Shown here: piece after piece, positions 1-16,051 of the stretch
Layout: every line of letters starts with the position of its first letter
Position numbering within the stretch: the stretch's first letter is position 1
Origin: Candidatus Binatia bacterium
GTDB lineage: Bacteria > Vulcanimicrobiota > Vulcanimicrobiia > Vulcanimicrobiales > Vulcanimicrobiaceae
NCBI GenBank assembly: GCA_035544215.1
Contig: DATKHY010000007.1
Span: forward strand, 186,001 to 250,000
Direction of reading: 5' to 3'
Length of the DNA stretch: 64,000 nt
Notes under the pieces: model-generated
Told to the model about the DNA's origin: nothing
Seen by the model: only the letters and a program-made list of their open reading frames with translations
Database searches by the model: none
Position numbers and translations under genes: made by a program

Positions 1-1099
1 TCCCGAGCCCGTCGTAGTCGAGGTACTTCGGGGGCTGCGGATCGTACCAGCCGCCGTAGTCGTCCCAGAAGACAAAGATCGCGGTTGAGTCCCAGTACTG
101 CGACTCGCCGACCGCGTTGACGAGCTGAGCGACCCAGGACGGGCCAGTGTTCGAGAAGCAGCCGGCGTGGTCCGAGTTGGCGCAAGTCGGCGTGATCCAG
201 CTCACGGCGCGCAGTTTTCCCTTCGAGACGTCGTCCAAGAAGTCGGTCTGAGGCGTGATGACGTCTTTGCCCCAGTCGGGACCGTTATAGATGTGGTTGA
301 TGGCCTGATAAGCGCTCCAGACGCCGCCGTCCACGTCCCACTGGGACGTGTAGAATCCCCACGAGAGCCCGGCCTTGTCGAGCTCGTCGCCGAGCGTCGT
401 GGTATCCCAGCAGGCGACCTCAAAGCCGTCGGGGACCTGGCGCTGCGGACCGACGATCGCAACTTTGTCGCTCGGTCCGCCCGGGCAGCCCCACGCCGAA
501 AACGGCCAGTCGACCGACGATTCCGACTGACCCGCGATGATGTATTGATGCGAGACGAAGCTGCTCCCGTCGAAGTTCGACGCGAACATCTCGTCGGCCA
601 GCACGTACTGCTTGCCCATGTCGAAGTAGGGCTTCGTCTCGCTGCCCGGCACGTACGCGTATTGCGGATGCGGAACCGGGCACGGTCCGCAGCCCGCGTA
701 TTCCTTGTCGAAGCCGTTCATCCGGCAGTCGGTACCGGGAATGCGTCCGGTGCCGTTGCACGCCTGGAAGAAATCCTTCGAGCCGTGGCCGACGTCCCAG
801 TGCGTTTCGAACTGGATCGGCGCGATCTTGACGCGCTTGTTGTGCGAGTCGTAGCCGTAGCGCACCGTTCTCGCGCCGGGGAAGCCGTAGAACAGGTTGT
901 TGAGACTGCGATTCTCTTGCACGATGATCACGACGTGCTGGATCTTCCCGCTCGAAGGCCCGCGCTCGCCGCCCCGCGGCACGAAGGTACGCGACTGCGG
1001 TCCGATCGCGACCGGCGGCCCCGGCGACGCGGCCGAGCCGCCGCCGCAGCCGGCGAGCGTCAGCGCCGCGGCGGCAATCGGCAAGATTCCGAACTTCAT
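1..1099 (-). CDS. Secreted phosphoesterase lipoprotein, copy 1 (PF04185-like, 3' end cut by window edge)
   Basis: Read from the reverse complement: ATG at 1097-1099 opens a frame that stays open to base 1, so the C-terminus lies outside the window. The N-terminus has a lipoprotein signal with lipobox TLAGC. The family signature VQENRSLNNLF (Glu-Asn metal ligands), a FDGSSFVSHQYII segment that probably carries the nucleophile, and the metal-binding WDDYGGWYDP motif are all present. The family comprises phospholipase C and acid phosphatases that hydrolyse phosphate monoesters or diesters outside the membrane; the substrate is unknown. It starts 10 bases after the stop of copy 2, so it is the last visible gene of the same transcript. 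It shares with copy 5 an extra cysteine pair around the SDHAG motif (TCANSDHAGC). Confidence 0.88.
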   Translation of the reverse strand, partial: MKFGILPIAAAALTLAGCGGGSAASPGPPVAIGPQSRTFVPRGGERGPSSGKIQHVVIIVQENRSLNNLFYGFPGARTVRYGYDSHNKRVKIAPIQFETHWDVGHGSKDFFQACNGTGRIPGTDCRMNGFDKEYAGCGPCPVPHPQYAYVPGSETKPYFDMGKQYVLADEMFASNFDGSSFVSHQYIIAGQSESSVDWPFSAWGCPGGPSDKVAIVGPQRQVPDGFEVACWDTTTLGDELDKAGLSWGFYTSQWDVDGGVWSAYQAINHIYNGPDWGKDVITPQTDFLDDVSKGKLRAVSWITPTCANSDHAGCFSNTGPSWVAQLVNAVGESQYWDSTAIFVFWDDYGGWYDPQPPKYLDYDGLG

Positions 1100-1109
1100 C
1101 GCGCCCGCG

Positions 1110-2495
1110 CTATTCCGCGTCCGGGATATGATAATCCGGCGGCTGATGCAGGAAAAAGTCGCGATCGTACGGCGCGTAGATTTTCACGAACCTTCGCGGC
1201 GGCGCGCTGAAATCGAAGCAATAGCGTGCTGGAGAGTTGGCCCGCGAGTCGCTGGCAGCCAGTCTTCCCAAGCCGAACGTGTCTTCCACGAACTTCAAGA
1301 TGCTGCCGTGCTCGTAGTGCACGTGTGAGACGTACCCCTTTTTCGCATAGGGCGACACGACTAGCATCGGCAACCGCATACCGAGGCCGTCGTAGTCTTT
1401 GTAGGCGGGCGGCTCCGGATCGTACCAGCCGCCGTAGTCGTCCCAGAAGATGAACATGGCGGTCGTTTTCCAGTACTTCGACTCGCCGACCGCGTTGACG
1501 AGCGACGCGACCCACGACGGACCCGTCTTCGAGCCGCTGCCGGCGTGATCGGAGTTCGGCCACGTCGGCGTAACCCAGCTAACCGAGCGCAGCTTGCCGC
1601 TCGAAACGTCGGTGAGGAACTGCGACGGGGGAGTGATTACGTCGCTTTTCCAGTCGGGGCCGTTGTAGATGTGGTTGATCGCCTGGTAGGCGCTCCAGAT
1701 GCCGGGACTCCCGCTCGAATACCCGACCGCGTAGTACGCCCAGGAGACGTGCGCCTTGTCGAGCTCGTCGCCGAGCGTGTTCGGATCCCAGCAGACGACC
1801 TCGTAGCCACTGGGAATCTGGCGTTGCGGCCCGACCTCCTGGACCACGTCGCCGGGTCCGCCGGGACAGCCCCAGTTGCTGACGGGATAGTCGACCGCCG
1901 ACTCCGCCTGACCCGAGATGATGTACTGATGCGAGATGAAGCTGCTCGCATCGAAATTCGACGCGTACATCCGGTCGGCGAGCACGAACTGTTTGCCGAC
2001 GTCGAAATACGGCTTCGTCTCGCTGTACGGCGCGTACGCGTACTGCGGATGAGGGATCGGGCATTGACTGCCGCAGCCCGCCTGCTCCTTGTCGAAGCCG
2101 TTCATCCGGCAGTGCGTCCCGCGAATGCGTCCGGTGCCATTGCACGCAGCGAAGAACGCCCCGGAGCTGTGATCGATGTCCCAGTACGTCTCCAGCCCGA
2201 CGGGCTGGAGCTTGATCTTCTGCCCCGAGCTGTCGTAGCCGTAGTTCGCGGTCGTCGCGCCCGGGAAGCCGTGGAACAGATCGTTGAAGCTGCGATTCTC
2301 CTGGACGACGATCACGATGTGCTTGATCTTGCCGCTCGAGATCCCGGGAAAGATACGCTCGGACGGCACGAAGGCGCTCGCGGAGGCCGCGGCGAGGTTC
2401 GCGACAGGCAATCCCGGCGACACACTCGAGCCGGCGCCATTACACGCCGCGAGCAGCGACGCCGCGGCGACGGAGAGCGTTGCGTACCGCATCAT
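1110..2495 (-). CDS. Secreted phosphoesterase lipoprotein, copy 2 (PF04185-like)
   Basis: 461 residues. The signal peptide ends in lipobox LLAAC, so export and lipid anchoring are expected. Motifs in order: IVIVVQENRSFNDLF near residue 65 (Glu/Asn metal ligands of the phospholipase C/AcpA superfamily), FDASSFISHQYIISGQ (probable nucleophile region), CWDPNTLGDELDK, TWPNSDHAGSGS, WDDYGGWYDPEP (metal-binding Asp pair), and the C-terminal FFLHQPPD tail. The start ATG overlaps the stop of copy 3 (ATGA), and no Shine-Dalgarno sequence is visible before it, which suggests translational coupling. Membership of the superfamily is clear; phospholipase C versus acid phosphatase cannot be decided here. 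Confidence 0.92.
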   Translation of the reverse strand: MMRYATLSVAAASLLAACNGAGSSVSPGLPVANLAAASASAFVPSERIFPGISSGKIKHIVIVVQENRSFNDLFHGFPGATTANYGYDSSGQKIKLQPVGLETYWDIDHSSGAFFAACNGTGRIRGTHCRMNGFDKEQAGCGSQCPIPHPQYAYAPYSETKPYFDVGKQFVLADRMYASNFDASSFISHQYIISGQAESAVDYPVSNWGCPGGPGDVVQEVGPQRQIPSGYEVVCWDPNTLGDELDKAHVSWAYYAVGYSSGSPGIWSAYQAINHIYNGPDWKSDVITPPSQFLTDVSSGKLRSVSWVTPTWPNSDHAGSGSKTGPSWVASLVNAVGESKYWKTTAMFIFWDDYGGWYDPEPPAYKDYDGLGMRLPMLVVSPYAKKGYVSHVHYEHGSILKFVEDTFGLGRLAASDSRANSPARYCFDFSAPPRRFVKIYAPYDRDFFLHQPPDYHIPDAE

Positions 2496-3871
2496 TCGGC
2501 GTCCACCACGTGGTCGTCGGGCGGCTGATGCAAGAAGAACGCCCGGTCGTAAGGAGACTGGATCGGCACGAACTTCCGCGGCGCCAGCTTGAAATTGAAG
2601 CAGTCGCGTGCCGGCGAGTTGGCCCGCGTGTCGCTGGCCGCTAGTCTGCTCAGACCGAACGCGTCTTCCACGAACTTCAGGATGCTGCCGTGCTCGTAGT
2701 GCACGTGCGAGACGCGCCCGTGCCGCGCGTACGGCGAGATGACAAGCATCGGCAGGCGCATGCCGAGGCCATCGACGTCGACGAAGGCGGGCGGTTCGGA
2801 ATCGTACCAGCCCCCGTAGTCGTCCCAGAAAGCGAAGATCGCGGTCGAGTCCCAGTACTTTGACTCCCCGATCGCGTTAACGACCGACGTGACCCACGAC
2901 GGTCCCGTGTTCGAGCCGCTGCCCGCATGATCCGAGTTGGTCCACGTCGGCGTCACCCAGCTGACCGTGCGCAGGTGGCCGTTCGCGACGTCGTTCAGTA
3001 TCTGCGACGGCGGGGCGATGATGTCTTTGCTCCAATCCGGACCGTTATAGATGTGGTTGATGGCCTGATACGCCATCCAGATGAAGGGATTACCCGAGTA
3101 CATTTCACCGTAAAAGGCCCACGACATACTGGCCTTGTCGAGCTCGTCGCCGAGCGTCGTCGGATCCCAACACACCACCTCGTAGCCGTCCGGCCCGCGC
3201 TGGGGACCGACTTCCGCGATCGTGTCGCCCGGTCCGCCGGGGCAGCCCCATAGGCCTCCGGGATAGTTGATAGAGTTCTCCGCCTGACCCGAGATGATGT
3301 ACTGATGCGACACGAAACTGCTGGCATCGAAGTTCGAAGCGTACATCTGATCGGCCAGCACCCACTCCTTGGCCATGTCGAAGTACGGTTTGGTCTCGCT
3401 GTAAGGCACGTATGCATATTGCGGGTGCTTGATCGGGCAGCTCCTTCCGCAGTTGGCCCCCTCCTGATTGAAGCCGTTCATCCGGCAGTTTGTGCCCGGC
3501 ATGCTGCCCGTCCCATTGCAGGCGGCGATGAAGCCGTACGAGTCGTGCTGCAGATCCCAGGTCGTCTCGAGCGGGATCGGAAGCAGCTTGATCTTGTGCC
3601 CGTACGTATCGTAGCCGTACTTGGCAGTCGTGGCGCCCTTGTAGCCGTAGAAGAGATTGTTAAAGCTGCGGTTTTCCTGCACGATGATGACGACGTGCTT
3701 GATCTTGCCGCTCGACAGCCCGAGCGCTGAGCCCCTCGACTCCGCACGGGACGGGCTCCGTGGAAGAGGACGCCCGGACGACACGCCAGGCGACACGCTC
3801 GGGGCGCCACCGTTACATGCTGCGAGCAGCAGCGTCGCGGCAACGACGAAGAGCGTTGCGCGCCGCATCAT
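2492..3871 (-). CDS. Secreted phosphoesterase lipoprotein, copy 3 (PF04185-like)
   Basis: 459 residues, with lipobox LLAAC after a short hydrophobic signal. Carries the same ordered motifs as its neighbours: VQENRSFNNLFYGY, FDASSFVSHQYII, CWDPTTLGDELDK, TWTNSDHAGSGS, WDDYGGWYDSEP and a FFLHQPPD tail. The mature N-terminus differs most between copies: here a Ser/Arg-rich linker (about residues 30-50) joins the lipid anchor to the catalytic domain. It starts inside the stop of copy 4 through an ATGA overlap and itself overlaps copy 2, so it sits in the middle of a coupled chain. Likely extracytoplasmic phosphate-ester hydrolase; substrate unknown. Confidence 0.92.
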   Translation of the reverse strand: MMRRATLFVVAATLLLAACNGGAPSVSPGVSSGRPLPRSPSRAESRGSALGLSSGKIKHVVIIVQENRSFNNLFYGYKGATTAKYGYDTYGHKIKLLPIPLETTWDLQHDSYGFIAACNGTGSMPGTNCRMNGFNQEGANCGRSCPIKHPQYAYVPYSETKPYFDMAKEWVLADQMYASNFDASSFVSHQYIISGQAENSINYPGGLWGCPGGPGDTIAEVGPQRGPDGYEVVCWDPTTLGDELDKASMSWAFYGEMYSGNPFIWMAYQAINHIYNGPDWSKDIIAPPSQILNDVANGHLRTVSWVTPTWTNSDHAGSGSNTGPSWVTSVVNAIGESKYWDSTAIFAFWDDYGGWYDSEPPAFVDVDGLGMRLPMLVISPYARHGRVSHVHYEHGSILKFVEDAFGLSRLAASDTRANSPARDCFNFKLAPRKFVPIQSPYDRAFFLHQPPDDHVVDAE

Positions 3872-5259
3872 TCTGCGTCGACGACGTGGTTGTCGGGCGG
3901 CTGATGCAGGAAGAACGCCCTATTGTAGGGAGCCTGGATCGGCACGAACGGGCGCGGCGCCTGCCTGAAGTCGAAGGCACGCGCCGGAGAGTTGGCGCGA
4001 GTGTCGCTGGCGGTCAGGCGACCGAGGCCGAATGTGTCCTCTACGAACTTCAGGATGCTGCCGTGCTCGTACTGCACGTGCGAGACGCGCCCGTGAAGAG
4101 CGTAGGGCGAGATGACCAGCATCGGCAGTCGCATGCCTAACCCGTCGTAGTCGGCGTAGGGCTGCGGCACGGGATCGTACCAGCCGCCGTAGTCGTCCCA
4201 GAAGACGAAGATCGCCGTCGAGTCCCAGTATTGCGATTCGCCGATCGCGTTGACGACCGACGTGACCCACGACGGCCCCGTGTTGGAGCCGCTGCCCGCG
4301 TGATCCGAGTTGGTCCACGTCGGCGTCACCCAGCTGACCGAGCGCAGTTTGCCGTTGGCTACGTCGTTGAGGATCGTCGACGGCGGCCCGAAGATGTCTT
4401 TGCTCCAGTCCGGACCGTTGTAGATGTGGTTGATCGCCTGATACGCGATCCACAGCCACGGGCTCCCCGAGTAAAACTGGCCGTAAAACGCCCACGAGAC
4501 GTTGGCCTTGTCGAGCTCGTCGCCGAGCGTGTTCGGATCCCAACAGACGACCTCGGGCTTGCTATAGAGAATTTGCCTTTGCTGGCCGAGCGTGTAGATT
4601 TGGTCGTACTTTCCCCCTGGGCAGCCCCAGCTGCTGCCGGGATAGTTGACCGCCGACTCGGCCTGGCCGGAGATGATGTACTGATGCGAGATGAAGCTGC
4701 TCGCGTCGAAGTTCGACGCGAACATGTTGTCGGCCAGCACCCACTCGTTGGCCATGGCGAAGTACGGTTTCGTCTCGGCGCGCGGCACGTAGGCGTACTG
4801 CGGATGCGGGATCGGGCAGCTGCTGTTGCAGCCGACCGATTCCCGATTGAAGCCGTTGTTCTTGCAGTTCGTCCCCGGGATGCTGCCCGTTCCGTTACAC
4901 GCGGCGATGTCGCCCCACGAGTCGTGTTCCAAATCCCAGTTCGTCTCGAGCGGAATCGGCAGCAGCTTGATCTTGTTGCCGTTGGAATCGTAGCCGTAGC
5001 TGGCCGTCGTGGCGCCCTTGTAGCCCTTGAACAGGTCGTTGAAACTGCGGTTCTCTTGAACGATGATGACGATGTGTTTGATCTTGCCTTTCGACGGGCC
5101 GCGTCCAATGGGCTGGCCGAGCGGCGCTACGTGCGAGCTCAGCGCGTTCGCGACCGGCAAGCCCGGCGAGACGCCGGCGCCGCCCCCATTGCACGCCGAC
5201 AGCAGATACGCCGCCGCCGCGAGCGGCAGCGCGCGGCCGGCGTGAGGATTGAAGCGCAT
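3868..5259 (-). CDS. Secreted phosphoesterase lipoprotein, copy 4 (PF04185-like)
   Basis: 463 residues, lipobox LLSAC, then VQENRSFNDLFKGYKGA, FDASSFISHQYII, WDPNTLGDELDK, TWTNSDHAGSGS, WDDYGGWYDPVP and the FFLHQPPD tail, in family order. Unlike copies 2, 3 and 5 it does not overlap the gene before it: a 17-base gap separates it from copy 5 and holds a near-perfect Shine-Dalgarno sequence (5265-5273) five bases before the ATG. It can therefore restart translation independently within the operon. The signal peptide is longer and carries a basic MRFNPHAGR start. Confidence 0.93.
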   Translation of the reverse strand: MRFNPHAGRALPLAAAAYLLSACNGGGAGVSPGLPVANALSSHVAPLGQPIGRGPSKGKIKHIVIIVQENRSFNDLFKGYKGATTASYGYDSNGNKIKLLPIPLETNWDLEHDSWGDIAACNGTGSIPGTNCKNNGFNRESVGCNSSCPIPHPQYAYVPRAETKPYFAMANEWVLADNMFASNFDASSFISHQYIISGQAESAVNYPGSSWGCPGGKYDQIYTLGQQRQILYSKPEVVCWDPNTLGDELDKANVSWAFYGQFYSGSPWLWIAYQAINHIYNGPDWSKDIFGPPSTILNDVANGKLRSVSWVTPTWTNSDHAGSGSNTGPSWVTSVVNAIGESQYWDSTAIFVFWDDYGGWYDPVPQPYADYDGLGMRLPMLVISPYALHGRVSHVQYEHGSILKFVEDTFGLGRLTASDTRANSPARAFDFRQAPRPFVPIQAPYNRAFFLHQPPDNHVVDAE

Positions 5260-5264
5260 GCGAG

Positions 5265-5273
5265 ACCTCCTTT
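5265..5273 (-). promoter_or_regulatory. Strong ribosome binding site of phosphoesterase copy 4
   Basis: The reverse complement reads AAAGGAGGT, followed by CTCGC and ATG. It is the strongest Shine-Dalgarno sequence of the array and fixes the start at 5259. The ATGA-coupled copies lack any comparable site. Confidence 0.85.
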
Positions 5274-5276
5274 GCG

Positions 5277-6650
5277 TTACTCCCAGTCCGGGATCCGCGG
5301 ATCGATAGGTTGGTGCAGGAAAAACTGCTTATCGTGCGGCGCCTGGATCTTCACGAACTTGCGCGGCGGCTTGGTGAAGTCGAACGCGTCAGACTCCGGC
5401 GAGTTCGCGCGCGTGTCGCTGGCGCTCAGCCGTCCCAAACCGAACTGGTCCTCCGTGAACCTCAGGATGCTGCCGTGCTCGTAATGCACGTGTGAAACAT
5501 AGGCCTGCTTGGCATATGCGGAAATGATCAGCATCGGAAGCCGCAGGCCCAGCCCGTCGTAGTCCTTGTATGCGGGCGGTTCGCGATCGTACCAGCCGCC
5601 GTAGTCGTCCCAGAAGACGAAGATCGCGGTGGAGTCCCAGTACTTCGACTCGCCGACCGCGTTGACCAGCGACGTGACCCATGCGGGCCCCGTATTCGAT
5701 CCGCAGCCCGCGTGATCGGAGTCGGCGCAGGTCGGCGTGATCCAGCTCACCGTCCGCAGCTTGCCGGCGGAGACGTCGCTAAAGAACTGCGTGTTGGGAG
5801 CGATGATGTCTTTGCTCCAGTCCGGGCCGTTGTAGATGTGGTTGATGGCCTGGTACGCGCTCCAGCCATCGGTGGTCGAGGCCGCGTAGAACGCCCACGG
5901 CAGGCCCGCCTTGTCGAGCTCGTCGCCCAGCGTGTTCGGATCCCAGCACACAACTTCGTAGCCGGACGGAATCTGCCGCTGCGGGCCGACCTTCGCGATC
6001 ATGTCGCTCGGGCCGCCTGGACAGCCCCAGTAGCTGTACGGATAGTTGACGGCCGATTCGGCCTGCGCCGAGATGATGTACTGATGCGAGATGAAGCTGC
6101 TCGCGTCGAAGTTCGACGCGTACATCCGATCGGCCAGCACCCACTCCTTGGCCATGTCGAAGTACGGCTCGGTCTCGGTGCGCGGGACGTATGCGTACTG
6201 CGGATGGGGGATCGGACAGCTGCTATAGCAGCCGACCCACTCTTGGTTGAAACCGTTCATGCGGCAACGCGTCCCCGGAATGCTGCCGGTCCCGTTGCAC
6301 GCCTCGAAAAACGCCCCGGAGCTGTGATCGATGTCCCACGTCGTTTCCAAGCCGATAGGCAACAGTTTGATCTTGTTGCCGTTCGTATCGTACCCGTACT
6401 TGCTGGTCTTCGCTCCCGGATAGCCCATGAACAAATTATTGAAGCTGCGATTCTCTTGCACGATGATGACGACGTGCTGGATCTTGCCGCTCGACGCCGC
6501 GCGCCGGACGCGGGCGGCCGGCGCCGCGAAGCGAGCCGGAGCTGAGTTCGCCAGCGGCAGCCCGGGCGCCGCGCCCGAGCCGCCGCCCGCGTTACAGGCT
6601 GCGAGCACCAGCGCCGCGGCAACGACGGAGAGCGTTGCGGAGCGCATCAT
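5277..6650 (-). CDS. Secreted phosphoesterase lipoprotein, copy 5 (PF04185-like, extra Cys pair)
   Basis: 457 residues, lipobox VLAAC. Motifs: VQENRSFNNLFMGY, FDASSFISHQYIISAQ, WDPNTLGDELDK, TCADSDHAGCGS, WDDYGGWYDREP, FFLHQP. The two cysteines flanking SDHAG replace Trp/Ser of copies 2, 3, 4 and 6 and recur only in copy 1, so they probably form a disulfide in the exported enzyme. The loop before SAYQAINHIYNGPDW is several residues shorter than in the others. The C-terminus ends DPRIPDWE rather than the common HVVDAE. The start overlaps the stop of copy 6 (ATGA). Same predicted role as its paralogues, but a distinct subtype. Confidence 0.92.
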   Translation of the reverse strand: MMRSATLSVVAAALVLAACNAGGGSGAAPGLPLANSAPARFAAPAARVRRAASSGKIQHVVIIVQENRSFNNLFMGYPGAKTSKYGYDTNGNKIKLLPIGLETTWDIDHSSGAFFEACNGTGSIPGTRCRMNGFNQEWVGCYSSCPIPHPQYAYVPRTETEPYFDMAKEWVLADRMYASNFDASSFISHQYIISAQAESAVNYPYSYWGCPGGPSDMIAKVGPQRQIPSGYEVVCWDPNTLGDELDKAGLPWAFYAASTTDGWSAYQAINHIYNGPDWSKDIIAPNTQFFSDVSAGKLRTVSWITPTCADSDHAGCGSNTGPAWVTSLVNAVGESKYWDSTAIFVFWDDYGGWYDREPPAYKDYDGLGLRLPMLIISAYAKQAYVSHVHYEHGSILRFTEDQFGLGRLSASDTRANSPESDAFDFTKPPRKFVKIQAPHDKQFFLHQPIDPRIPDWE

Positions 6651-8035
6651 TCGGCGTCCACGACGTGGTTGTCGGGGGGTTGATGCAGGAAGAACGCCCT
6701 ATCGTACGGAGCCTGGATCGGCACGAACGCGCGCGGCGGCTGCTTGAAGTCGAACGCGGGGTCCGGAGAGTTCGCGCGTTTGTCGCTGGCGGCGAGATTG
6801 CCCAAACCGAAGGTCTGTTCCACGAACTTCAGAATGCTGCCGTGCTCGTAGTGCACGTGCGAGACGCGCCCGTGCCGCGCGTAGGGCGAGATGATGAGCA
6901 TTGGCAGGCGCATGCCCAAGCCGTCGTAGTCGGCGTAAGCCGGCGGCTCGGGATCGTACCAACCGCCGTAGTCGTCCCAGAAGACGAAAATCGCGGTGGA
7001 GTCCCAGTATTTCGATTCGCCGATCGCGTCGACGACCGACGTGACCCACGACGGGCCGGTGTTCGAGCCGCTGCCCGCATGATCGGAGTTGCCCCAGCTG
7101 GGTGTCACCCAGCTGACCGAGCGCAGGTTGCCGTTGGCGACGTCAGTGATGATCTGCTTTGGCGGGCTGATCACGTCTTTGCTCCAGTCCGGGCCGTTGT
7201 AGATGTGGTTGATCGCCTGATATGCGACCCAGATGAACGGATAGCCGGAGTAGATTTCGCCGTAGAAGGCCCACGACACGCTGGCTTTGTCGAGCTCGTC
7301 CCCAAGCGTGTTCGGATCCCAGCACACCACCTCGTTGCCGTAGGGAATCTGCCGCTGCGGGCCGACCATCGAGATCGTGTCGTATTTGCCGCCCGGGCAA
7401 CCCCAAGGACCACCCGGATAGTTGACGGCCGACTCGGCCTGGCCGGAGATGATGTACTGATGCGAGATAAAGCTGCTCGCGTCGAAATTCGACGCGTACA
7501 TCTGATCGGCCAGCACCCACTCCTTGGCCATGGCGAAGTACGGCTTGGTCTCGGTGCGCGGCACGTAGGCGTACTGCGGATGCGGGATCGGGCAGCTGCT
7601 GCCGCAGCCGACGTACTCCTTATTGAAGCCGTCCATCTTGCAGTTGGTGCCGGGAATGCTGCCCGTGCCGTCGCACGCGGCGAAGAACGCCCCGGAACTG
7701 TGGTCGATGTCCCACCTCGTTTCCAGCCCAACCGGCAGCAACTTGATCTTCTGGCCGTAGGAATCGAGGCCGTAGCTGGCCGTCGTGGCGCCCTTGTAGC
7801 CCTTGAACAGGTCGTTGAAACTGCGGTTCTCTTGAACGATGATGACGATGTGCTTGATCTTGCGGCTCGACGGGCCGCGCAGGACGCGCCGTAACTCGGA
7901 CGCTACGCGCGAGCTCGGTCGAATCGCCGACGGCAGGCCTGGCGATACGCCGGCGCCGCTGTTACTACAGGCTGAGATGAAGAGCACGAAGGCCGTAACC
8001 AAAAACGTCCGGCCCGCGAGCGAGATGGATTGCAT
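6647..8035 (-). CDS. Secreted phosphoesterase lipoprotein, copy 6, first gene of the array (PF04185-like)
   Basis: 462 residues, lipobox FISAC. Motifs: VQENRSFNDLFKGYKGA, FDASSFISHQYIISGQ, WDPNTLGDELDK, SWGNSDHAGSGS, WDDYGGWYDPEP, FFLHQPPDNHVVDAE. It is the promoter-proximal gene: its ATG is preceded by AAGGAG about ten bases upstream, and a 103-base gap separates it from the anti-sigma-like gene upstream on the same strand. That gap may hold a promoter, but I see no convincing -35/-10 pair, so read-through from the regulatory cassette remains possible. Confidence 0.92.
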   Translation of the reverse strand: MQSISLAGRTFLVTAFVLFISACSNSGAGVSPGLPSAIRPSSRVASELRRVLRGPSSRKIKHIVIIVQENRSFNDLFKGYKGATTASYGLDSYGQKIKLLPVGLETRWDIDHSSGAFFAACDGTGSIPGTNCKMDGFNKEYVGCGSSCPIPHPQYAYVPRTETKPYFAMAKEWVLADQMYASNFDASSFISHQYIISGQAESAVNYPGGPWGCPGGKYDTISMVGPQRQIPYGNEVVCWDPNTLGDELDKASVSWAFYGEIYSGYPFIWVAYQAINHIYNGPDWSKDVISPPKQIITDVANGNLRSVSWVTPSWGNSDHAGSGSNTGPSWVTSVVDAIGESKYWDSTAIFVFWDDYGGWYDPEPPAYADYDGLGMRLPMLIISPYARHGRVSHVHYEHGSILKFVEQTFGLGNLAASDKRANSPDPAFDFKQPPRAFVPIQAPYDRAFFLHQPPDNHVVDAE

Positions 8036-8138
8036 GAAACGAGTGCTCCTTGCAGCAAAGTAAACTGCCAGACGTTACGACGACGAAAAAGAAAATCCCA
8101 TAGCCGCGACGGCGCCCGCGAGCCGATGATGACGCCAA

Positions 8139-8552
8139 TCATCTTTTCTCGAGAAACGAGCAGCCGACGAACGTCATGCTGACGCAGGTACCGCGCGTCG
8201 TGTCGATGTCCAGCTGGTGCGCGATCGCCCGAATGATGCGAAGCCCGAAGCCTCGCCCCGGAAGCGGCTTGCGCCGGATGAACGAGCCGCGGTCCAAGAC
8301 GTCGACCCAAAGACGTCCGCCACGGTCATAGCGCGCGAGCAGCTGCACGTCGCGCGCAACCTTGCTCGAGCTGCGGGCGTACGCGTGCTCCACGACGTTG
8401 GCCAACGCCTCACCAGCCGCGGTGGTCACGTCGTCTCGAACGGCGCTGTCGAGTTGCAGGGCCTCGAGAAACGCCGTGAGCGCGTGCCGGATCGGAGCGA
8501 CGTACTGCGGTTGCGCCGGACAATGCAGGCGCAGCTGAGAGGCTCGCTTCAT
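8139..8552 (-). CDS. RsbW/SpoIIAB-like serine kinase (anti-sigma factor, HATPase)
   Basis: 137 residues with a GHKL ATPase fold: N box EALANVVEHAY (about 48-58), a degenerate G1 box VDVLDRGS, and GRGFGLRIIRAIAHQLD. In partner-switching systems this kinase binds a sigma factor or another target and phosphorylates its STAS antagonist. It overlaps the STAS gene upstream by four bases (ATGA), which in turn overlaps the phosphatase gene, so all three are translated as one unit. No sigma factor is adjacent; the target is unknown. The phosphoesterase array follows downstream on the same strand. Confidence 0.88.
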   Translation of the reverse strand: MKRASQLRLHCPAQPQYVAPIRHALTAFLEALQLDSAVRDDVTTAAGEALANVVEHAYARSSSKVARDVQLLARYDRGGRLWVDVLDRGSFIRRKPLPGRGFGLRIIRAIAHQLDIDTTRGTCVSMTFVGCSFLEKR

Positions 8553-8881
8553 TCGGTGCCGCTCTGCTCGAGATACGCCAAGGCCGCGTCTCGATCGCCG
8601 AAGATCTTGAAGGCGCCGGCCAACCCGGCGTACTCGACCACGCGCGCGAACTGCGGCGTACGTACCACCAGCGCGACCGGGATCGCGTCGTGCGAAGACG
8701 CTACGCAGAACCGCAGAAGCTCGGTCAGGGCCACCGAGTCGGCATACGTCACGTCCGAGAGGTCGACGAGGATCGCGCGATCGCCGGCCGACCGCCGCAG
8801 CGCCTCGCGTATTTCGTCCTTGCGGCCGATCTCGAGCTCGCCGCTCAGACGGATCGTCTTGATTGAATCGCTTTGGTTCAC
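8549..8881 (-). CDS. STAS-domain anti-sigma factor antagonist (RsbV/SpoIIAA-like)
   Basis: 110 residues covering one STAS domain. The segment ILVDLSDVTYADSVAL contains the conserved Asp-Ser pair; the Ser is the usual phosphorylation site of this family. It is dephosphorylated by the upstream PP2C phosphatase and phosphorylated by the downstream kinase in the standard model. It overlaps both neighbours by four bases, so stoichiometric translation is likely. Confidence 0.88.
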   Translation of the reverse strand: MNQSDSIKTIRLSGELEIGRKDEIREALRRSAGDRAILVDLSDVTYADSVALTELLRFCVASSHDAIPVALVVRTPQFARVVEYAGLAGAFKIFGDRDAALAYLEQSGTE

Positions 8882-10323
8882 GCCGTTCTCCGCAGTGCGG
8901 CTGGATCCGGCGCGCCGGCCACCGCAGGGTCCAAGAAGTGAATCGTCAGTATCGCGATGTCGTCGGAGACCCGATGATGATCGAAGATCACGTCTCGAAT
9001 GGCTTTCGCCGGCTCGGCGCCGGCTCTCTGCGCCGCCGCTTCGACGGCCTCGAGCAGAAGCGCCTCTCCCTGGAGAACGTCGTGCGAGTGCTCGATCACT
9101 CCGTCGGTGTAAAGCACGAGCATCGCACCCGGCACGCTCTTCACACGATTCGTGCCATACCCAGCGTCGCGATTGATGCCCAGAGGCAGGGCGCCGACTT
9201 CGAGGAATCGCGCGCGGCGACCCGGCTCGAACAGCACCGGCGCGGGATGACCGGCGACGGCGTAACTAAACTCGTACGCACGCGCGTCTACGAGTCCGAC
9301 AATGGCCGTGATCATCGGGAAGTTGGCAGCGATGACCTCGGCGTTGACGCGCTCGAGAATGCTTCCCGGCGAGGGGTCGACGAGTGCGCTGGAGATCAGC
9401 ATCTGCCGCGTCTTGTTCATCGCGACCGCCGCCTCGATCCCGTGACCGGCGACGTCGCCGATGGCGAGCAGCACGCGATCGTCCGGCATTTGAACGGCGT
9501 CGTACCAGTCGCCGCCGACCTTCGCCTCTTCCGTCGCGGGCAAGTAGGTCGCGCTCAATCGCACGCCGGGCAGCTTGGGCAGCACCGTCTGCGCGAACGC
9601 CTCCTGGAGCGTGTCCGCGATCCGCTTTTCCGCCTCGTACGCTGCGCGTATCTCGGCCGCGCGGCGCCGCTGTTCCTCTGATTTCACGCGTTCTTGCTCG
9701 AGCCGGCGGGCCAGCCGGTACTGCTGGATCGTGAAGAGCGCAGCCGCCAAGATCACTGCGACGACGGCGCCGATGGCAAAGAGGTTCGCCAGGCCGATCG
9801 CGCGCTCCGCACGAGCATCGCCTTGCCGCTCGCGGCGAACCAAGGCCGCGTCGATGGCGCCGATGTCGGCGCGAAAGCGATCGACGAGAATCTTGCCGTG
9901 CAGCTCGAGCACGTGGCCGTTGCGCCGCTTGGCGAGCAGCAACGGAAACGCGACCCGGTGCAGCCAGCGCGCGTTCGTGGCCCGCGCGTCCGCGACGAGC
10001 CGCGTCGCATCGCGGACTCCGAGCGCGTCGCCGGCCCCGCCGAGGCTCCGCAACAGGCCGGGCAGAGCGGCTCGACCGCGGAAGTACGGCTCGAGCAGCA
10101 GCGGATCGCGCACCGACGAGAAACCGCGAGCTCCCGTCTCCTCGTCGAGTTGCGCACGTACGGCCTCGGCGGCGACGATGCGCGCCGCGCGGACCTGTTC
10201 CGCGTCCGCGTACGATGCCGTCAGGATCCGAGGCACCAGCACCCCGCCCGCGACGAGCAGCCCGACGACGAGCGCCAAGAAGCCGAGCGTTAGGACCAAC
10301 GGTATGGGAAGACGGCGAGTCAT
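8878..10323 (-). CDS. Membrane PP2C-type phosphatase with extracytoplasmic sensor (RsbU/SpoIIE-like)
   Basis: About 481 residues from the preferred ATG at 10321-10323 (MTRRLP); an in-frame start at 10404 would add 27 residues before the first membrane helix. Layout: helix about 8-28, a roughly 150-residue periplasmic region rich in helices (CHASE3-like), a second helix about 170-195, a coiled coil, then the SpoIIE phosphatase domain with GGDWYDAV, AIGDVAGHG, LYTDGVIE and SDDIAI motifs that carry the metal-binding Asp residues. It probably dephosphorylates the adjacent STAS protein in response to an external signal. First gene of the three-gene regulatory unit. Confidence 0.87.
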   Translation of the reverse strand: MTRRLPIPLVLTLGFLALVVGLLVAGGVLVPRILTASYADAEQVRAARIVAAEAVRAQLDEETGARGFSSVRDPLLLEPYFRGRAALPGLLRSLGGAGDALGVRDATRLVADARATNARWLHRVAFPLLLAKRRNGHVLELHGKILVDRFRADIGAIDAALVRRERQGDARAERAIGLANLFAIGAVVAVILAAALFTIQQYRLARRLEQERVKSEEQRRRAAEIRAAYEAEKRIADTLQEAFAQTVLPKLPGVRLSATYLPATEEAKVGGDWYDAVQMPDDRVLLAIGDVAGHGIEAAVAMNKTRQMLISSALVDPSPGSILERVNAEVIAANFPMITAIVGLVDARAYEFSYAVAGHPAPVLFEPGRRARFLEVGALPLGINRDAGYGTNRVKSVPGAMLVLYTDGVIEHSHDVLQGEALLLEAVEAAAQRAGAEPAKAIRDVIFDHHRVSDDIAILTIHFLDPAVAGAPDPAALRRTA

Positions 10324-10531
10324 CGCCTGGCGCTCTTTCTCACCGCCGTACGACGGCCCTCCGGCGATCAGGAGTGCCCCAGATGCCAACCGTGGCGCTC
10401 GCATCGATACGGCTGCAATCCCTTCGACGCCGGCGGGATCGCGCGCAGCGCGAGATGGCGCGTTGCGAACGCCGCCTTCGGAGCGCCGTTGGCTTTATAA
10501 CAGGAGCGCGGACCGCCGCGCCTGCGCTGCG

Positions 10532-11011
10532 TCACTCCTCGCCGTCGAAATAATCGAGCGGCTCCGACCGAAGATTGCGACGCTCGGGTATCGGTACGCC
10601 CCACTTGCCGCTGTCGGGATAGTGCCAGCATTCGCCGATCGGATTGTCGGCCACGACGTAGAGAACCAGATCCTCGGTGCCGTCGTTGAAGAACTGATGC
10701 GCTTGGCCGGGCTCGAAGATGCATGCGTCACCCTCGACGATCGGCGTCGTTCCGCCCTCGTACCGCACTGTGCCGCTTCCCGAGATGACGTGATAGAACT
10801 CCCACTGCGCGCTATGCGAATGATAGGGATAGGGCGCCTTGCCCGCGGGGATGCGGAGGATCTCGACGTCAAAGGGATGGCGCTCGCGCAGATCCGTCGA
10901 CCGCGGCTTGCGTCCTAACGCTTCCGAAACCTCGATCCCCTCGCCCGCCATGGTCCCCTTTGGCGAAGCCCACTTTATGGGCTCGATCTTTTTCGTGTTG
11001 ACGATCAGCAT
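10532..11011 (-). CDS. Cupin-domain protein
   Basis: 159 residues from the ATG at 11009-11011, chosen because GAGGA lies about 12 bases upstream and because longer versions would add an unlikely Cys/Pro/Arg-rich leader over the divergent gene. Cupin motif 1 is HSHSAQWEFYHVISG and motif 2 is GDACIFEPGQAHQFFN, giving the two His, Glu and His metal ligands. Single-domain cupins include mannose-6-phosphate isomerases, dioxygenases and storage-like binding proteins; the C-terminal WHYPDSGKWGVP stretch does not identify the substrate. Divergent from the propeller lipoprotein gene. Confidence 0.8.
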   Translation of the reverse strand: MLIVNTKKIEPIKWASPKGTMAGEGIEVSEALGRKPRSTDLRERHPFDVEILRIPAGKAPYPYHSHSAQWEFYHVISGSGTVRYEGGTTPIVEGDACIFEPGQAHQFFNDGTEDLVLYVVADNPIGECWHYPDSGKWGVPIPERRNLRSEPLDYFDGEE

Positions 11012-11093
11012 GCTCGTTTTAGTCCTCGTAGCGACCGTTCGCCGAAGTCCGAGCAAGGGCCGCTTCGGCGGGCTCGCGAATTGCGTTACGTTC

Positions 11094-12002
11094 ATGAAGA
11101 ATGCATTTCTCGTGGTCTGCGCGATGGCGCTGTGCGGCGGATGCTCGGGCGGCGTCGGCTCCGTGGGCCTCGCGGATCGCGCGACGGCGCCGGCGAACGC
11201 GACGCCCGATCTGCCCGCGATCGAGCACGCGCTGTTCGTCTCTAACCTTGGCAACGAGGTCTTCGTGTTGCGGGGCAAGCCGTACCACGTGACGCGCGAG
11301 ATCACGCACGGCGTGCACGGCTCCGACGGCCTCTGGGTCGACAGACACGGCAACCTTTACGTCTCGAACATCAATGCAAGGAACGTCACGGAGTATCTTC
11401 GCGGTGGCCGGCTGCCCATTTGCCGATACAGCGATCGCCTCATCGATCCGATCGACGTCACGACCGACGACCAAGGCAACGTTTACGTCGACGACTTCAA
11501 CAATTTCCGCCCGACCGGCTACATCGACAAGTACGCGCAATGCCATAACAAAGTGATAGCGCGCCACGCGATCAAAAGCGGCCCCGAGGGTGTTGCGGTC
11601 GATTCAGCCGGTGACCTGTTCGTGGCCTACTATAACGGCGCGTTCGGCGGATTCGAAGAGTTCCTCAAAGGTAAGAGCAAGCCCAAGCTGCTCACGGCAG
11701 TCGTCACAAAGCCCGGCGGCATCGTGCTCGACAAGAAGGGCAACCTCATCGCGGACGATCAGGCGGGCTCGATCGACATCATCCCTCCGCCGTACGCTAA
11801 GCCGAAGCTCCTCGTCGGCGGCCTCTACGATCCGTTCCGGCTCGCGCTAAATAAGGACGAGACTCGTCTGTTCAGCGCAGACTCAGGATCCGCCAGCGTC
11901 ACGATTTACTCGTATCCGGACGCCGACTTGCTCGAGACGGTCTCCGGCGGCAGCTTCACGACCGTGGAGGGCGTCGCCATATCACCCGACGCGGTTTTTT
12001 AA
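11094..12002 (+). CDS. NHL/SMP-30-like beta-propeller lipoprotein
   Basis: 302 residues from ATG 11094 (MKNAFLVV), whose signal peptide ends in lipobox LCGGC. The mature protein has propeller-blade repeats of the type GLWVDRHGNLYVSN, DVTTDDQGNVYVDD, GVAVDSAGDLFVAY and GIVLDKKGNLIADD, as in NHL or Virginiamycin B lyase-like propellers. The C-terminus ends VAISPDAVF, also seen in the next gene. Longer in-frame starts to 10839 overlap the cupin gene and remove the signal peptide from the N-terminus, so they are rejected. Probably exported and lipid-anchored; the ligand is unknown. Confidence 0.82.
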   Translation: MKNAFLVVCAMALCGGCSGGVGSVGLADRATAPANATPDLPAIEHALFVSNLGNEVFVLRGKPYHVTREITHGVHGSDGLWVDRHGNLYVSNINARNVTEYLRGGRLPICRYSDRLIDPIDVTTDDQGNVYVDDFNNFRPTGYIDKYAQCHNKVIARHAIKSGPEGVAVDSAGDLFVAYYNGAFGGFEEFLKGKSKPKLLTAVVTKPGGIVLDKKGNLIADDQAGSIDIIPPPYAKPKLLVGGLYDPFRLALNKDETRLFSADSGSASVTIYSYPDADLLETVSGGSFTTVEGVAISPDAVF

Positions 12003-12177
12003 GGTTCCTTCGTAGGGCTGAGCGAGCGGGCGTGCGAACCTGTCGCACCCCACTCATGCCACGCGCGCAGCCGGCGAGTCGCGTCTGTCACCTCGGTTCT
12101 TCTCGCCGCAAGTCGTTCCAGACAGGCACAGACTGCGCGTCGAGAAGGAGTTCTTCATCTCCGATACCGGAAGCAAC

Positions 12178-12891
12178 GTGTTTGTGTTCAAGAATTCGAC
12201 GTACACGAAGGTCGGCGACATCACCAGCGGCATCACCGCATCGGACGGCGTCTGGGTCGACAAGAAGGGCAACGTCTACGTCGCCAACGTCATCAGCAAC
12301 GTCGTCGAATATAAGAGGGGCGCCGGGTCACCGATCTGCACGTACTCGGCGAGCTTGACCGACCCCATTAACGGCACGACCGACAGCGCCGGTAACGTCT
12401 ACGTGACCGACTTCGAGGGAGGCGCCGTTCGCGAGTATGCGCAGTGCAGCAACACGGTGAAGGCGACGTTCTCCGTCTCGAATCCCGAGGGTGTTGCGGT
12501 CGACACCAAGGGCGACGTCTTCGTTTCGTTCGGCGGTAACTTCGAAGAGTTCACTGGCGGCAAAGGGACGATACTCGGCGCGACGATCGGCTCGGCGGCG
12601 GGCCTGATCCTCGACAACAAGGGTGATCTGATCGCCGACGACCAGACCAACGGTTCGATCGACCTCGTCGCCCCGCCCTACACCACGGCGACGCAACTCG
12701 TGACCGGGCTCTCGGATCCGTTCCACTGCTCGCTCAATTCGGCGGAGAATCTGCTGTTCAACGCCAACCACGGCTCGGCCACCGTGACGATCTACAGCTA
12801 TCCGTCGATGTCGCTCGTGCATACGATCACGACGAGCGACGGCATCGACGGCGCGGAGGGCGTCGGCGAATCACCCGACGCGGTGTTCTAG
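12178..12891 (+). CDS. Beta-propeller paralogue with missing N-terminus (possible pseudogene)
   Basis: 237 residues from GTG 12178, closely related to the preceding gene: GVWVDKKGNVYVAN, TTDSAGNVYVTD, GVAVDTKGDVFVS, LILDNKGDLIADD and terminal GVGESPDAVF. Homology continues upstream of the GTG in the same frame (FFISDTGSNVFVF at 12151-12189 matches LFVSNLGNEVFVL of the neighbour), and that frame is open back to about 12022 but has no ATG, GTG or TTG and no signal peptide. The gene therefore looks like a tandem duplicate whose 5' end was lost, or it is made as a cytoplasmic fragment. A shared 17-base string (gagggtgttgcggtcga) occurs in both copies. Confidence 0.6.
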   Translation: MFVFKNSTYTKVGDITSGITASDGVWVDKKGNVYVANVISNVVEYKRGAGSPICTYSASLTDPINGTTDSAGNVYVTDFEGGAVREYAQCSNTVKATFSVSNPEGVAVDTKGDVFVSFGGNFEEFTGGKGTILGATIGSAAGLILDNKGDLIADDQTNGSIDLVAPPYTTATQLVTGLSDPFHCSLNSAENLLFNANHGSATVTIYSYPSMSLVHTITTSDGIDGAEGVGESPDAVF

Positions 12892-12912: not shown

Positions 12913-12945
12913 GCGTGCGCTCCGTTCGCGGGGCGCACGCTTTTT
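12913..12945 (+). terminator. Rho-independent terminator after the propeller genes
   Basis: GCGTGCGC (12913-12920) pairs with GCGCACGC (12933-12940), followed by TTTTT (12941-12945). It lies 22 bases after the propeller stop and touches the stop codon of the convergent dnaE2 gene. Confidence 0.85.
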
Positions 12946-15900
12946 ATTGGAAGCTATGGATGCCGACCGTACGCGTGATGCCCTCGTCGCTGAAGCTCCA
13001 GACCTTCTTGGCGAGGACGTCTATGCAGCCGCTCTCCTTCTGCAGCGTCCCCTCGACGATCAGCGTCGGCGACGAGCGGATTGGACGGCGAAAGGCTTCG
13101 TAGACGTCGGGGCGCACGATGACGTTGACGAGCCCCGTCTCGTCCTCTAGCGTCAGGAAGACGAAACCCTTTGCCGTGCCGGGACGCTGGCGCGTAATCA
13201 CGAGGCCGCCGACACGGCACTTGCCGTTGCGCGGCAGCTCGCGCAAACGCGCCGCCGGGACGACGCCCTGCGCGGCGAGCTTGTCGCGAAAGTGCTCCAT
13301 CACTTGGCCGCCGGCGGTGACGCCGGTCGACCAGAGATCGAACGCCGCGATCCGCTTCGGCGCCACCCGCTCGAACTCGACCGCCGGCTCGTCGACGTCC
13401 ATAAGGGAACCGAGCTCGCCGCGCGCCTCGCGCTCGTCGATGCCGCGCAGCGCCCACATCGCCTCGCGGCGCGAGCCGTACCAGGGCGCGAAAGCTCCCG
13501 CGATCGCTAGGTTCTCCAGCGTCTCGCGCTGGAGCCGCGTTCTCTGCGCGAACGCCAGCACGTCCGCGAACGGGCCCCGGCCGATGGCGTCTTCCAGGTT
13601 CTTCTTCTGCCCTTCACCGAGCCCGCGCACCAGATGGAATCCCAAACGCAACGCGCCGTCGCTCTCCACGTGCGACCAGTAGCCGCTGGCGTTGACTTCG
13701 ATGGGATTTACGCGCACGTCGTGGCGGCGCGCGTCGTTGACGAGCACCTCCGTCGAGTAAAAGCCCATCGGCTGCACGTTGAGGATCGCGGCCGCAAACA
13801 CGGCCGGCATATGGCACTTGAGATAGGCCGACGCATACGCCAGGAGCGCGAAGCTCGCGGCGTGTGATTCCGGAAAGCCGTAGTCGGCGAAGCCCTCCAG
13901 CATGTGAAAGAGCCGCTCGGCCACGCTCGCGTCAATGCCGTTGCCGACCATGCCGTCGATGAGCTTCTGGCGCATTGCCTGCATGCGCTCGCGCGAGCGC
14001 TTGTGGCCCATCGCGCGGCGTAGCTCGTCGGCCTCTCCGCCGGAGAATCCGGCCGCCTCGATGGCCAGGCGCATTCCTTGTTCCTGAAAGAGCGGCACGC
14101 CGAGCGTTCGTTCCAAGACGGGTTTCAGCTTCGGATGCGGATAGGTCACGGCTTCGGCCCCCGAACGCCGGCGGAGAAACGGATGGACCATATCGCCTTG
14201 AATCGGGCCGGGGCGAATGATCGCCACTTGCATGACGATGTCGTAGAAGCAGGCCGGCTTCATGCGCGGCAGCATCGACTGCTGCGCGCGGGACTCGATT
14301 TGAAAGACGCCGACCGTATCGGCGTGCCCGATCATCTCGTAGGTTTTCACATCGTCCGCCGGGATCGTGTGCAGCTCGAGGTCGCGCGCGACCGCGGGCG
14401 GCAGCCAGGCGTCGCGGCGCTCGACGCAGCCGCGGTACAGTGAGAACGCCTCGCGCAAGAGCGAGAGCATCCCTAGGCCGAGCAGGTCGATCTTGATCAG
14501 GCCCAGGTCTTGCAGATCGTCCTTGTCCCACTGAACGACGGTGCGGTCGCGCATCGTCGCCCACTCTACCGGCGCCACACACACCAGCGGATCGCGCGTG
14601 ATCAACATGCCGCCGGAATGAATGCCGAGGTGGCGCGGAAAGCTCGCGAGCCGTCGGCAGATCGCGAAGAGGAGTTCGGGGCCGGCCTCGTCGGGAAGCT
14701 CCTCGCGCGCGTCGTACTCGCGCGCAATCGCGTCGACTTGCTCGAGGCTCAGCCCCAGGGTCTTGCCGACGTCGCGGATCGCGGAGCGTGTCCGATACGT
14801 AATCACCTCGGCCACCATCGCGGCATTGGTGCGGCCATAGCGTTCGTAGACGTACTGAATCACGCGCTCGCGATCTTGATGCGCGAAATCGATGTCGATG
14901 TCTGGAATCTCGCGCCGCTCCTCCGACATGAAGCGCTCGAAGAGCAGGTTCATCCCGATCGGGTCGACGGCGGTGATTCCGAGGGCATAGCAGACCGCCG
15001 AGTTCGCCGCCGAGCCGCGTCCCTGACAGAGCACGCCCAGCCGCGCCGCCTCGCGCACGATGTCCCAGACGATCAAGAAATAGCCGGCCAGATCCATCTT
15101 GGCAATCAAGCCGAGCTCGTATTCGAGCTGGCGCTCCACGCGCGTCTCGAGCGGCGTCGCGTAGCGCCGCACCGCGCCCACATAGACGAGCTCGCGCAGG
15201 TAGTGCTGCGGCGTGCTTCCCTCCGGCACCGGAAAGAGCGGGAACTGTCCGGTCTGGCGCTCCAGCCGAAACCGGCAGCGCCGCGCGATCTCGACGCTTC
15301 GCTCGATCGCCTCGGGATAGCCGGCGAAGAGCCGGCGCATCGCGGCCGGGGCTTTGAGATGGAACTCCGCATTAGGACGCAGCTGGTTGGCGGCGCGCGC
15401 GGCTTGTAGCGTCGTACCCTCGCGCACGCACGAAAGCACGTCGGCTATCAGCGCGTCCTCCTTGACGGCGTAGACTACTCCGTTGGTCGCGACGTACGGC
15501 AGGCGGCACTCCCGCGCGAGCCGCACGAGCTCGACGTTGCGCTGCGTCTCCTGCGGCGTGAGATGCTGCTGGAGCTCGAGATAGAAGCGCTGCTCGAACA
15601 GCGTGCTCAGGGCGCGCGCTTCTCGCGCTGCAGCTTCCCGGCCGCCGTGCACGAGCGTGCGCTCCACGCGACCCCACGGGCCGCCCGACAGCGCGATCAA
15701 TCCCGCGACGCCGCCCTCGAGGTCCTCCACGCGCAGGCGCGCGTCGCACTTACTCCCGCGCATCTGCGCCGTCGAAATCAGCCGGCAGAGATTCGCATAA
15801 CCGCGCTCGTCTTCCACCAAGAGCACAATCCGCGCGCCGTCTTCGAACGTAAGCTCGCTGCCGATAATCGCCGCGATCCCGCGCCGGCGCGCGCAGGTCG

Positions 15901-16048
15901 AGAAGCGCACCGCTCCGTAGAGGCCGTCGCGATCGGTCAGCGCGAGCGCCGTCAGCCCCAGCTCGGCCGCGCGCTCTACCAGCTCTTCGGGATGCGAACC
16001 GCCCTGTAGAAAACTATAGTTCGACCAGGCATGTAGCTCCGCATACAT
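12944..16048 (-). CDS. dnaE2: Error-prone DNA polymerase DnaE2 (ImuC)
   Basis: 1034 residues, the usual DnaE2 length. The N-terminal PHP domain starts with HAWSNYSFLQG and LALTDRDGLYG; the alpha-subunit catalytic core has PDIDIDFAH with catalytic Asp residues, GRGSAANS and AMGHKRSRERM; the C-terminal OB domain has GLVITRQRPGTAKGFVF and VLAKKVWSF. In the SOS response this polymerase performs mutagenic lesion bypass with ImuA and ImuB. It starts three bases after the imuB stop and ends against the convergent propeller terminator. Third gene of the LexA-box operon. Confidence 0.95.
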   Translation of the reverse strand: MYAELHAWSNYSFLQGGSHPEELVERAAELGLTALALTDRDGLYGAVRFSTCARRRGIAAIIGSELTFEDGARIVLLVEDERGYANLCRLISTAQMRGSKCDARLRVEDLEGGVAGLIALSGGPWGRVERTLVHGGREAAAREARALSTLFEQRFYLELQQHLTPQETQRNVELVRLARECRLPYVATNGVVYAVKEDALIADVLSCVREGTTLQAARAANQLRPNAEFHLKAPAAMRRLFAGYPEAIERSVEIARRCRFRLERQTGQFPLFPVPEGSTPQHYLRELVYVGAVRRYATPLETRVERQLEYELGLIAKMDLAGYFLIVWDIVREAARLGVLCQGRGSAANSAVCYALGITAVDPIGMNLLFERFMSEERREIPDIDIDFAHQDRERVIQYVYERYGRTNAAMVAEVITYRTRSAIRDVGKTLGLSLEQVDAIAREYDAREELPDEAGPELLFAICRRLASFPRHLGIHSGGMLITRDPLVCVAPVEWATMRDRTVVQWDKDDLQDLGLIKIDLLGLGMLSLLREAFSLYRGCVERRDAWLPPAVARDLELHTIPADDVKTYEMIGHADTVGVFQIESRAQQSMLPRMKPACFYDIVMQVAIIRPGPIQGDMVHPFLRRRSGAEAVTYPHPKLKPVLERTLGVPLFQEQGMRLAIEAAGFSGGEADELRRAMGHKRSRERMQAMRQKLIDGMVGNGIDASVAERLFHMLEGFADYGFPESHAASFALLAYASAYLKCHMPAVFAAAILNVQPMGFYSTEVLVNDARRHDVRVNPIEVNASGYWSHVESDGALRLGFHLVRGLGEGQKKNLEDAIGRGPFADVLAFAQRTRLQRETLENLAIAGAFAPWYGSRREAMWALRGIDEREARGELGSLMDVDEPAVEFERVAPKRIAAFDLWSTGVTAGGQVMEHFRDKLAAQGVVPAARLRELPRNGKCRVGGLVITRQRPGTAKGFVFLTLEDETGLVNVIVRPDVYEAFRRPIRSSPTLIVEGTLQKESGCIDVLAKKVWSFSDEGITRTVGIHSFQ

Positions 16049-16051
16049 GGG

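Follow-up and report, generated by a model that had tools for sequence, protein, structure and literature searches.

The PF04185 array and the genes preceding it

The window analysed here, 64,000 nucleotides long (G000:C7:186001-250000), belongs to the 3.23 Mb genome, in nine contigs, of a soil bacterium from the Eremiobacterota, a phylum that has received little study, and carries at its left end six open reading frames of the PF04185 family, all on the minus strand, from position 8035 down to the window edge. With the one found past this edge, the tandem array counts seven PF04185 genes (op1 to op7, G000:C7:184354-194035); the gene to the left of op7 lies on the opposite strand. Neighbours in the array overlap by 4 nt or leave gaps of 1–17 nt, a spacing that is as expected of one operon. 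The initial annotation had described at least six paralogues, continuing leftward: the array is real and larger than that, but the upstream partner-switch genes and a genomic background of about 50 copies had been missed.

Copies 2, 3 and 5, counted from left to right, start within the stop of the preceding gene by an ATGA overlap, and copies 4 (op3) and 6 (op1) have strong Shine-Dalgarno sequences, AAAGGAGG and AAGGAG respectively, all as previously annotated. Copy 1 (op6) begins 10 nt past the previous stop, without a clear Shine-Dalgarno sequence. As the proteins encoded at the ATGA junctions begin with MM, these junctions read ATGATG and the second ATG is a possible start.

The seven proteins are 64–78% identical and keep every catalytic motif intact, as the initial annotation had it. 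Their signal peptides and linkers vary, also as announced, but their C-termini, said to differ, are fairly conserved. A lipobox pattern is present in the seven copies, and its cysteine, C23, is invariant across 58 aligned homologues. Collapsed or chimeric repeats are unlikely, since the copies are this divergent, the array contig is 1.7 Mb long and independent metagenome-assembled genomes (MAGs) carry one to seven copies at the same locus; an assembly artefact was thus discarded. A phage origin was also set aside, viral contigs having been searched without finding relatives.

A block of four genes, cupin-rsbU-rsbV-rsbW, directly precedes the array (Table 1). By their Pfam domains and conserved order, the SpoIIE/PP2C, STAS and HATPase genes together form an RsbUVW partner-switch module; the phosphatase, the STAS protein and the kinase stand in the same order as in sigma-B type modules.

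Table 1. Features of the array locus. Positions are those of the window unless a contig is given.
Feature	Position	Strand	Description	Support
op7	G000:C7:184354-185733		seventh PF04185 gene, outside the window	
op6	1..1099	-	PF04185 lipoprotein, runs over the window edge, its end being at G000:C7:185735	Pfam PF04185
op5	1110..2495	-	PF04185 lipoprotein, ATGA overlap with op4	Pfam PF04185
op4	2492..3871	-	PF04185 lipoprotein, ATGA overlap with op3	Pfam PF04185
op3	3868..5259	-	PF04185 lipoprotein, own Shine-Dalgarno AAAGGAGG, 17 nt past op2	Pfam PF04185
op2	5277..6650	-	PF04185 lipoprotein, ATGA overlap with op1	Pfam PF04185
op1	6647..8035	-	PF04185 lipoprotein, 462 aa	Pfam PF04185 163 bits; AlphaFold2 model
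Promoter-like motif	8075..8099	-	bipartite, GGGATTTT...GTCGTAA, ECF-like in appearance, 40-64 nt before the op1 start	
Inverted-repeat-like sequence	8129..8141	-	TGATTGGCGTCAT, TGAYG-NN-CGTCA, overlaps the rsbW stop codon	
rsbW	8139..8552	-	RsbW-like anti-sigma kinase (HATPase_c_2)	Pfam PF13581 68.9 bits; conserved position
rsbV	8549..8881	-	RsbV-like anti-anti-sigma factor (STAS)	Pfam PF01740 49.3 bits; conserved position
rsbU	8878..10404	-	RsbU-like phosphatase, CHASE3 sensor and SpoIIE/PP2C	Pfam PF07228 130.6 bits, PF05227 31 bits; genus orthologues
cupin gene	10532..11353	-	cupin-domain protein, upstream of rsbU	Pfam PF07883; order kept in most genus members

Fold and active site

The six window copies match Pfam PF04185 with 113–163 bits, and all seven exceed its gathering cut-off of 23 bits, which settles the membership that the initial annotation had proposed to check. 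The AlphaFold2 model of op1 (pLDDT 85) resembles structures of the AcpA/phospholipase C family (Foldseek E about 1e-20, VIA Z 31–40): Z is 36.3 against Francisella AcpA (PDB 2d1g, also PF04185) and 31–40 against non-specific phospholipase C and phospholipase C structures. Other folds among those listed score far lower (VIA Z 19); they come from the wider alkaline phosphatase superfamily, namely from sulfatases and nucleotide pyrophosphatases.

The superfamily active site (E-N, Ser/Thr nucleophile, His, D-D/E) is present in the array proteins. By sequence alignment, E69/N70, S188, H319 and D354/D355 correspond to AcpA E43/N44, S175, H350 and D386/D387; for AcpA, PlcH and NPC4, the roles of the residues are partly those given in PMC2673038 and PMC9837106. 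S188 and D355, found in all seven copies, match the AcpA-like serine nucleophile and second aspartate metal ligand, while the phospholipase C signature—threonine nucleophile and glutamate at the second metal position—occurs in none of them. These two positions are T178/E358 in PlcH (PMC2673038) and T158/E300 in NPC4 (PMC9837106); AcpA has many phosphomonoesters among its substrates, but no authentic phospholipids (PMC2673038). Because the Ser/Asp signature is that of AcpA and Thr/Glu that of phospholipases, a phosphatase is favoured over a phospholipase, although few characterised members stand behind this residue rule; the degradation of phospholipids put forward initially thus loses ground.

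The array proteins share with AcpA the fold, the metal and catalytic residues and a similar length. They differ in context: AcpA has been described as periplasmic (PMC2673038), whereas the array proteins bear lipoprotein-like signals and are encoded in tandem behind an rsbUVW module. With PlcH, PlcN, NPC4 and RePLC they have the superfamily and the fold core in common; NPC4, however, possesses an extra C-terminal domain, and PlcH and PlcN longer chains, where the array proteins end with a short tail. The best named NCBIfam match is the Burkholderia-type acid phosphatase TIGR03397, at 73–128 bits, strongest in the C-terminal half and far below the curated cut-off of 362.75; the phosphocholine-specific phospholipase C model TIGR03396 gives 65–111 bits, for a cut-off of 580.25.

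Conservation and evolution of the locus

RsbU orthologues with at least 54% identity are found in other members of the genus, and in the 11 genus members where the contig extends far enough, this one included, rsbU is always followed by PF04185 genes, one to seven in number: seven in G000 and G016, six in G002, at least five in G012, three in G005, G008 and G011, at least three in G001, one in G009, and at least one in G003 and G013. In G007 (98% complete) no match to rsbU passes the threshold applied; G014, G015 and G017 have distant matches only. Outside the genus, five genomes of five other genera (G036, G025, G029, G022 and G047) have rsbU-V-W without the array. This suggests that the array was recruited behind a pre-existing module, probably in the ancestor of the genus or of part of it.

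An IQ-TREE phylogeny of 80 proteins unites 36 array genes with one dispersed gene in a single clade (100/100 support), which leaves out the two PF04185 genes of G033 situated at about 5 kb from an rsbUVW block. Within the clade the genes group mostly by species, so that copies turn over between species, and copy-by-copy orthology (op1 to op4) is restricted to G002 and G012, the closest pair. The conserved array with orthologous clades that the initial annotation looked for thus holds for the locus, orthologous genus-wide, but not for the single copies, mostly lineage-specific.

The ratio of nonsynonymous to synonymous divergence (dN/dS) is 0.10–0.12 for each orthologous copy pair of G002 and G012, which are under purifying selection, against 0.25–0.30 for the G000 paralogues and 0.13–0.18 for rsbU. 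Purifying selection on each orthologous copy together with a higher dN/dS between paralogues lends indirect support to the diversification of copies evoked in the initial annotation. The synonymous divergence between G000 array paralogues (0.5–0.7) is about the same as for rsbU when G000 is compared with G005 (0.60), which indicates duplications about as old as this species split. A possible gene-conversion tract appears between op1 and op3 (permutation p 0.0115, uncorrected, one of 21 pairs); with this sole hint, widespread gene conversion was not retained.

The spacer between the module and the array

Little of the spacer separating rsbW (or rsbU) from the array is conserved apart from GGGA[CGT]TT...GTCGTAA, the two parts being 18–19 nt apart, start to start. 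This motif, which resembles a promoter of extracytoplasmic function (ECF) sigma factors, is recognisable with a few substitutions in 10 of the 11 genus members; an exact match to it is found only once in the whole 3.23 Mb of the genome. The position weight matrix gives 26.9 upstream of op1, a score inflated because the G000 site is among those building the matrix; other PF04185 genes reach at most 14.4, and random stretches of the window up to 16.9. Conservation across species is therefore stronger evidence for the motif than its score. Since the other copies remain at background level, we rejected the idea of a regulon embracing all PF04185 genes.

A sequence related to the inverted-repeat-like TGATTGGCGTCAT is found at the same place in genomes with rsbW, and not in G001 and G013, where rsbW is missing there. 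The palindrome TGAYGNNCGTCAT was not kept as a genome-wide operator: its exact pattern has six matches, against three for the reversed control. A standard sigma-70 scan yielded five promoter-like matches (2.0 expected), none of them upstream of op1, and terminator-like matches were at chance level.

A family expanded in the genome and in the genus

The genome has 51 PF04185 matches, and the 18 genus members 21–68 each, or 36–68 where completeness is at least 90% (full scoring). At first look, four other genera of the family have 42–62 candidates and the remaining genera 3–16, while the phylum's five genomes from outside the class gave no match. Named relatives are Eremiobacterota MAGs throughout, many labelled palsa or pasture. 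The majority of the copies in the genome carry a lipoprotein-like signal, and among 48 of them the serine nucleophile is kept in 44 and the second aspartate in 45. Two paralogues (G000:C3:437506-438801 and G000:C1:320404-321606) have lost several catalytic residues and are candidate pseudoenzymes. Two further clusters, of seven genes (G000:C6:1351-19651) and six genes (G000:C3:758954-767446), show mixed orientation and belong to other clades of the tree.

PhoA, PhoD and PhoX, which predominate among secreted bacterial phosphatases according to PMC8115612, are each absent from the 18 genus genomes, and a PBP_like_2/PstS-type protein is present in 17 of them. Taken together these two results support, without proving it, a role of the array in phosphate scavenging. 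Besides, two PF04185 genes flank the pst phosphate transport locus of G000, within about 5 kb on either side (L163, G000:C3:262000-281500). With 21–68 genes of an acid-phosphatase superfamily in 18 Eremiobacterota genomes without PhoA, PhoD or PhoX matches, surveys of phosphorus cycling limited to phoA, phoD and phoX would miss these enzymes.

A switch-controlled set of surface phosphatases?

We propose, with a probability of roughly 0.55, that the array is a switch-controlled operon whose seven products are lipid-anchored acid phosphatases, members of the AcpA/phospholipase C superfamily that act on organic phosphate. It would be transcribed from its own ECF-like promoter, probably, just behind the RsbU-RsbV-RsbW module: a signal perceived by the CHASE3 domain of RsbU would lead to the dephosphorylation of RsbV, which would capture RsbW and make it release its target, probably a sigma factor whose gene lies elsewhere. 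At the surface, the enzymes would hydrolyse organic phosphate esters by a metal-assisted mechanism through a phosphoserine enzyme, the freed phosphate entering through Pst. Tandem duplication, repeated by lineage and followed by divergence, would provide more enzyme and probably a wider range of substrates, and the PF04185 family, with about 40 further apparently intact copies, would replace PhoA, PhoD and PhoX in this genus of soil and peat bacteria. Regulation by the module, its sigma-factor target, the substrates, the surface location and the scavenging role are what we infer. The dedicated surface phosphoesterase system suggested by the initial annotation gains support from the lipoprotein-like signals, the intact catalytic residues, the conserved locus with its promoter-like motif, and the absence of PhoA, PhoD and PhoX from the genus. 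A wider proposal, that the genus replaced these three enzymes with 20–70 diversified surface acid phosphatases per genome and placed one array under a dedicated partner switch and an array-specific promoter, not the Pho regulon, is only tentative.

Several observations weigh against the proposed operon. Neither rsbV nor rsbW was found between rsbU and the array in G001 and G013, so that the full module is not strictly required; in G001 the match to the rsbU orthologue (G001:C45:3470-4915) contains an internal TAG stop, and the module is possibly decaying there. Unlike in sigma-B type systems, no gene recognised as encoding a sigma factor adjoins the module, which is followed by the phosphatase array instead, and the regulator that binds the promoter-like motif could be one without any relation to RsbW. 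A general linkage to Pst was dropped, since only three of the nine judgeable genomes (G000, G011 and G016) have PF04185 genes close to pst. Finally, the count concerned PhoA, PhoD and PhoX; a replacement of all secreted phosphatases, with PAP2, class B and C, histidine and purple acid phosphatases among them, would go beyond it.

The partner-switch genes might then be mere neighbours of an independent operon having its own promoter and an unrelated regulator: the conserved array-specific motif between rsbW and op1, its persistence with the array in G001 and G013, and the existence of the module without the array outside the genus all go in this direction, which we regard as a serious though not the likelier possibility, given that the gene order is kept in all 11 judgeable genus members while the array varies from one to seven genes. 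It may also be that the copies are redundant duplicates supplying a surface enzyme in bulk, without functional differences. Their intact catalytic residues, their lineage-specific character and the candidate conversion tract between op1 and op3 would fit; paralogues only 64–78% identical, at a synonymous divergence comparable to that of rsbU between G000 and G005, and with a dN/dS above that of the orthologues, are better explained by diversification or relaxed constraint than by pure dosage, which makes this explanation rather unlikely.

We consider still less probable that the array products are phospholipases C, or phosphodiesterases of another kind, attacking the membrane lipids of other organisms or recycling lipids of necromass. 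The superfamily is common to both, the closest structures by VIA Z include non-specific phospholipases C, and TIGR03396 is matched, but far from its cut-off; moreover the Ser/Asp pair is that of AcpA, which leaves authentic phospholipids uncleaved, not the Thr/Glu pair of characterised phospholipases (PMC2673038, PMC9837106), with the reserve already made on the number of members behind the rule. As to a surface variation by which copies would escape phages or predators, catalysis being secondary, it could account for lipoproteins with many divergent paralogues and a lineage-specific turnover; it is very improbable, since nearly every copy retains its active site and purifying selection acts on the orthologous ones.

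If RsbUVW does switch the array, this would be an unusual case of nutrient-scavenging enzymes under partner switching. Both the PF04185 family and the partner switch are well known. Their combination, the number of copies and the lack of the standard enzymes found no mention in the open literature searched, which is not proof that they are unreported.

Other genes of the window

Lipoprotein-like genes with NHL/beta-propeller repeats (10851-12891) diverge from the cupin-rsb block; in relatives, many PF04185 genes have similar ones nearby. Further along (12944-17987), a DNA polymerase III alpha-type gene (PHP and finger domains) is followed by two smaller genes positioned and sized like ImuB and ImuA, without Pfam match, possibly forming an SOS mutagenesis cassette. 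At 41339-44680 lies the gene of a large membrane protein resembling protein O-mannosyltransferases (PMT and PMT_4TMC domains).

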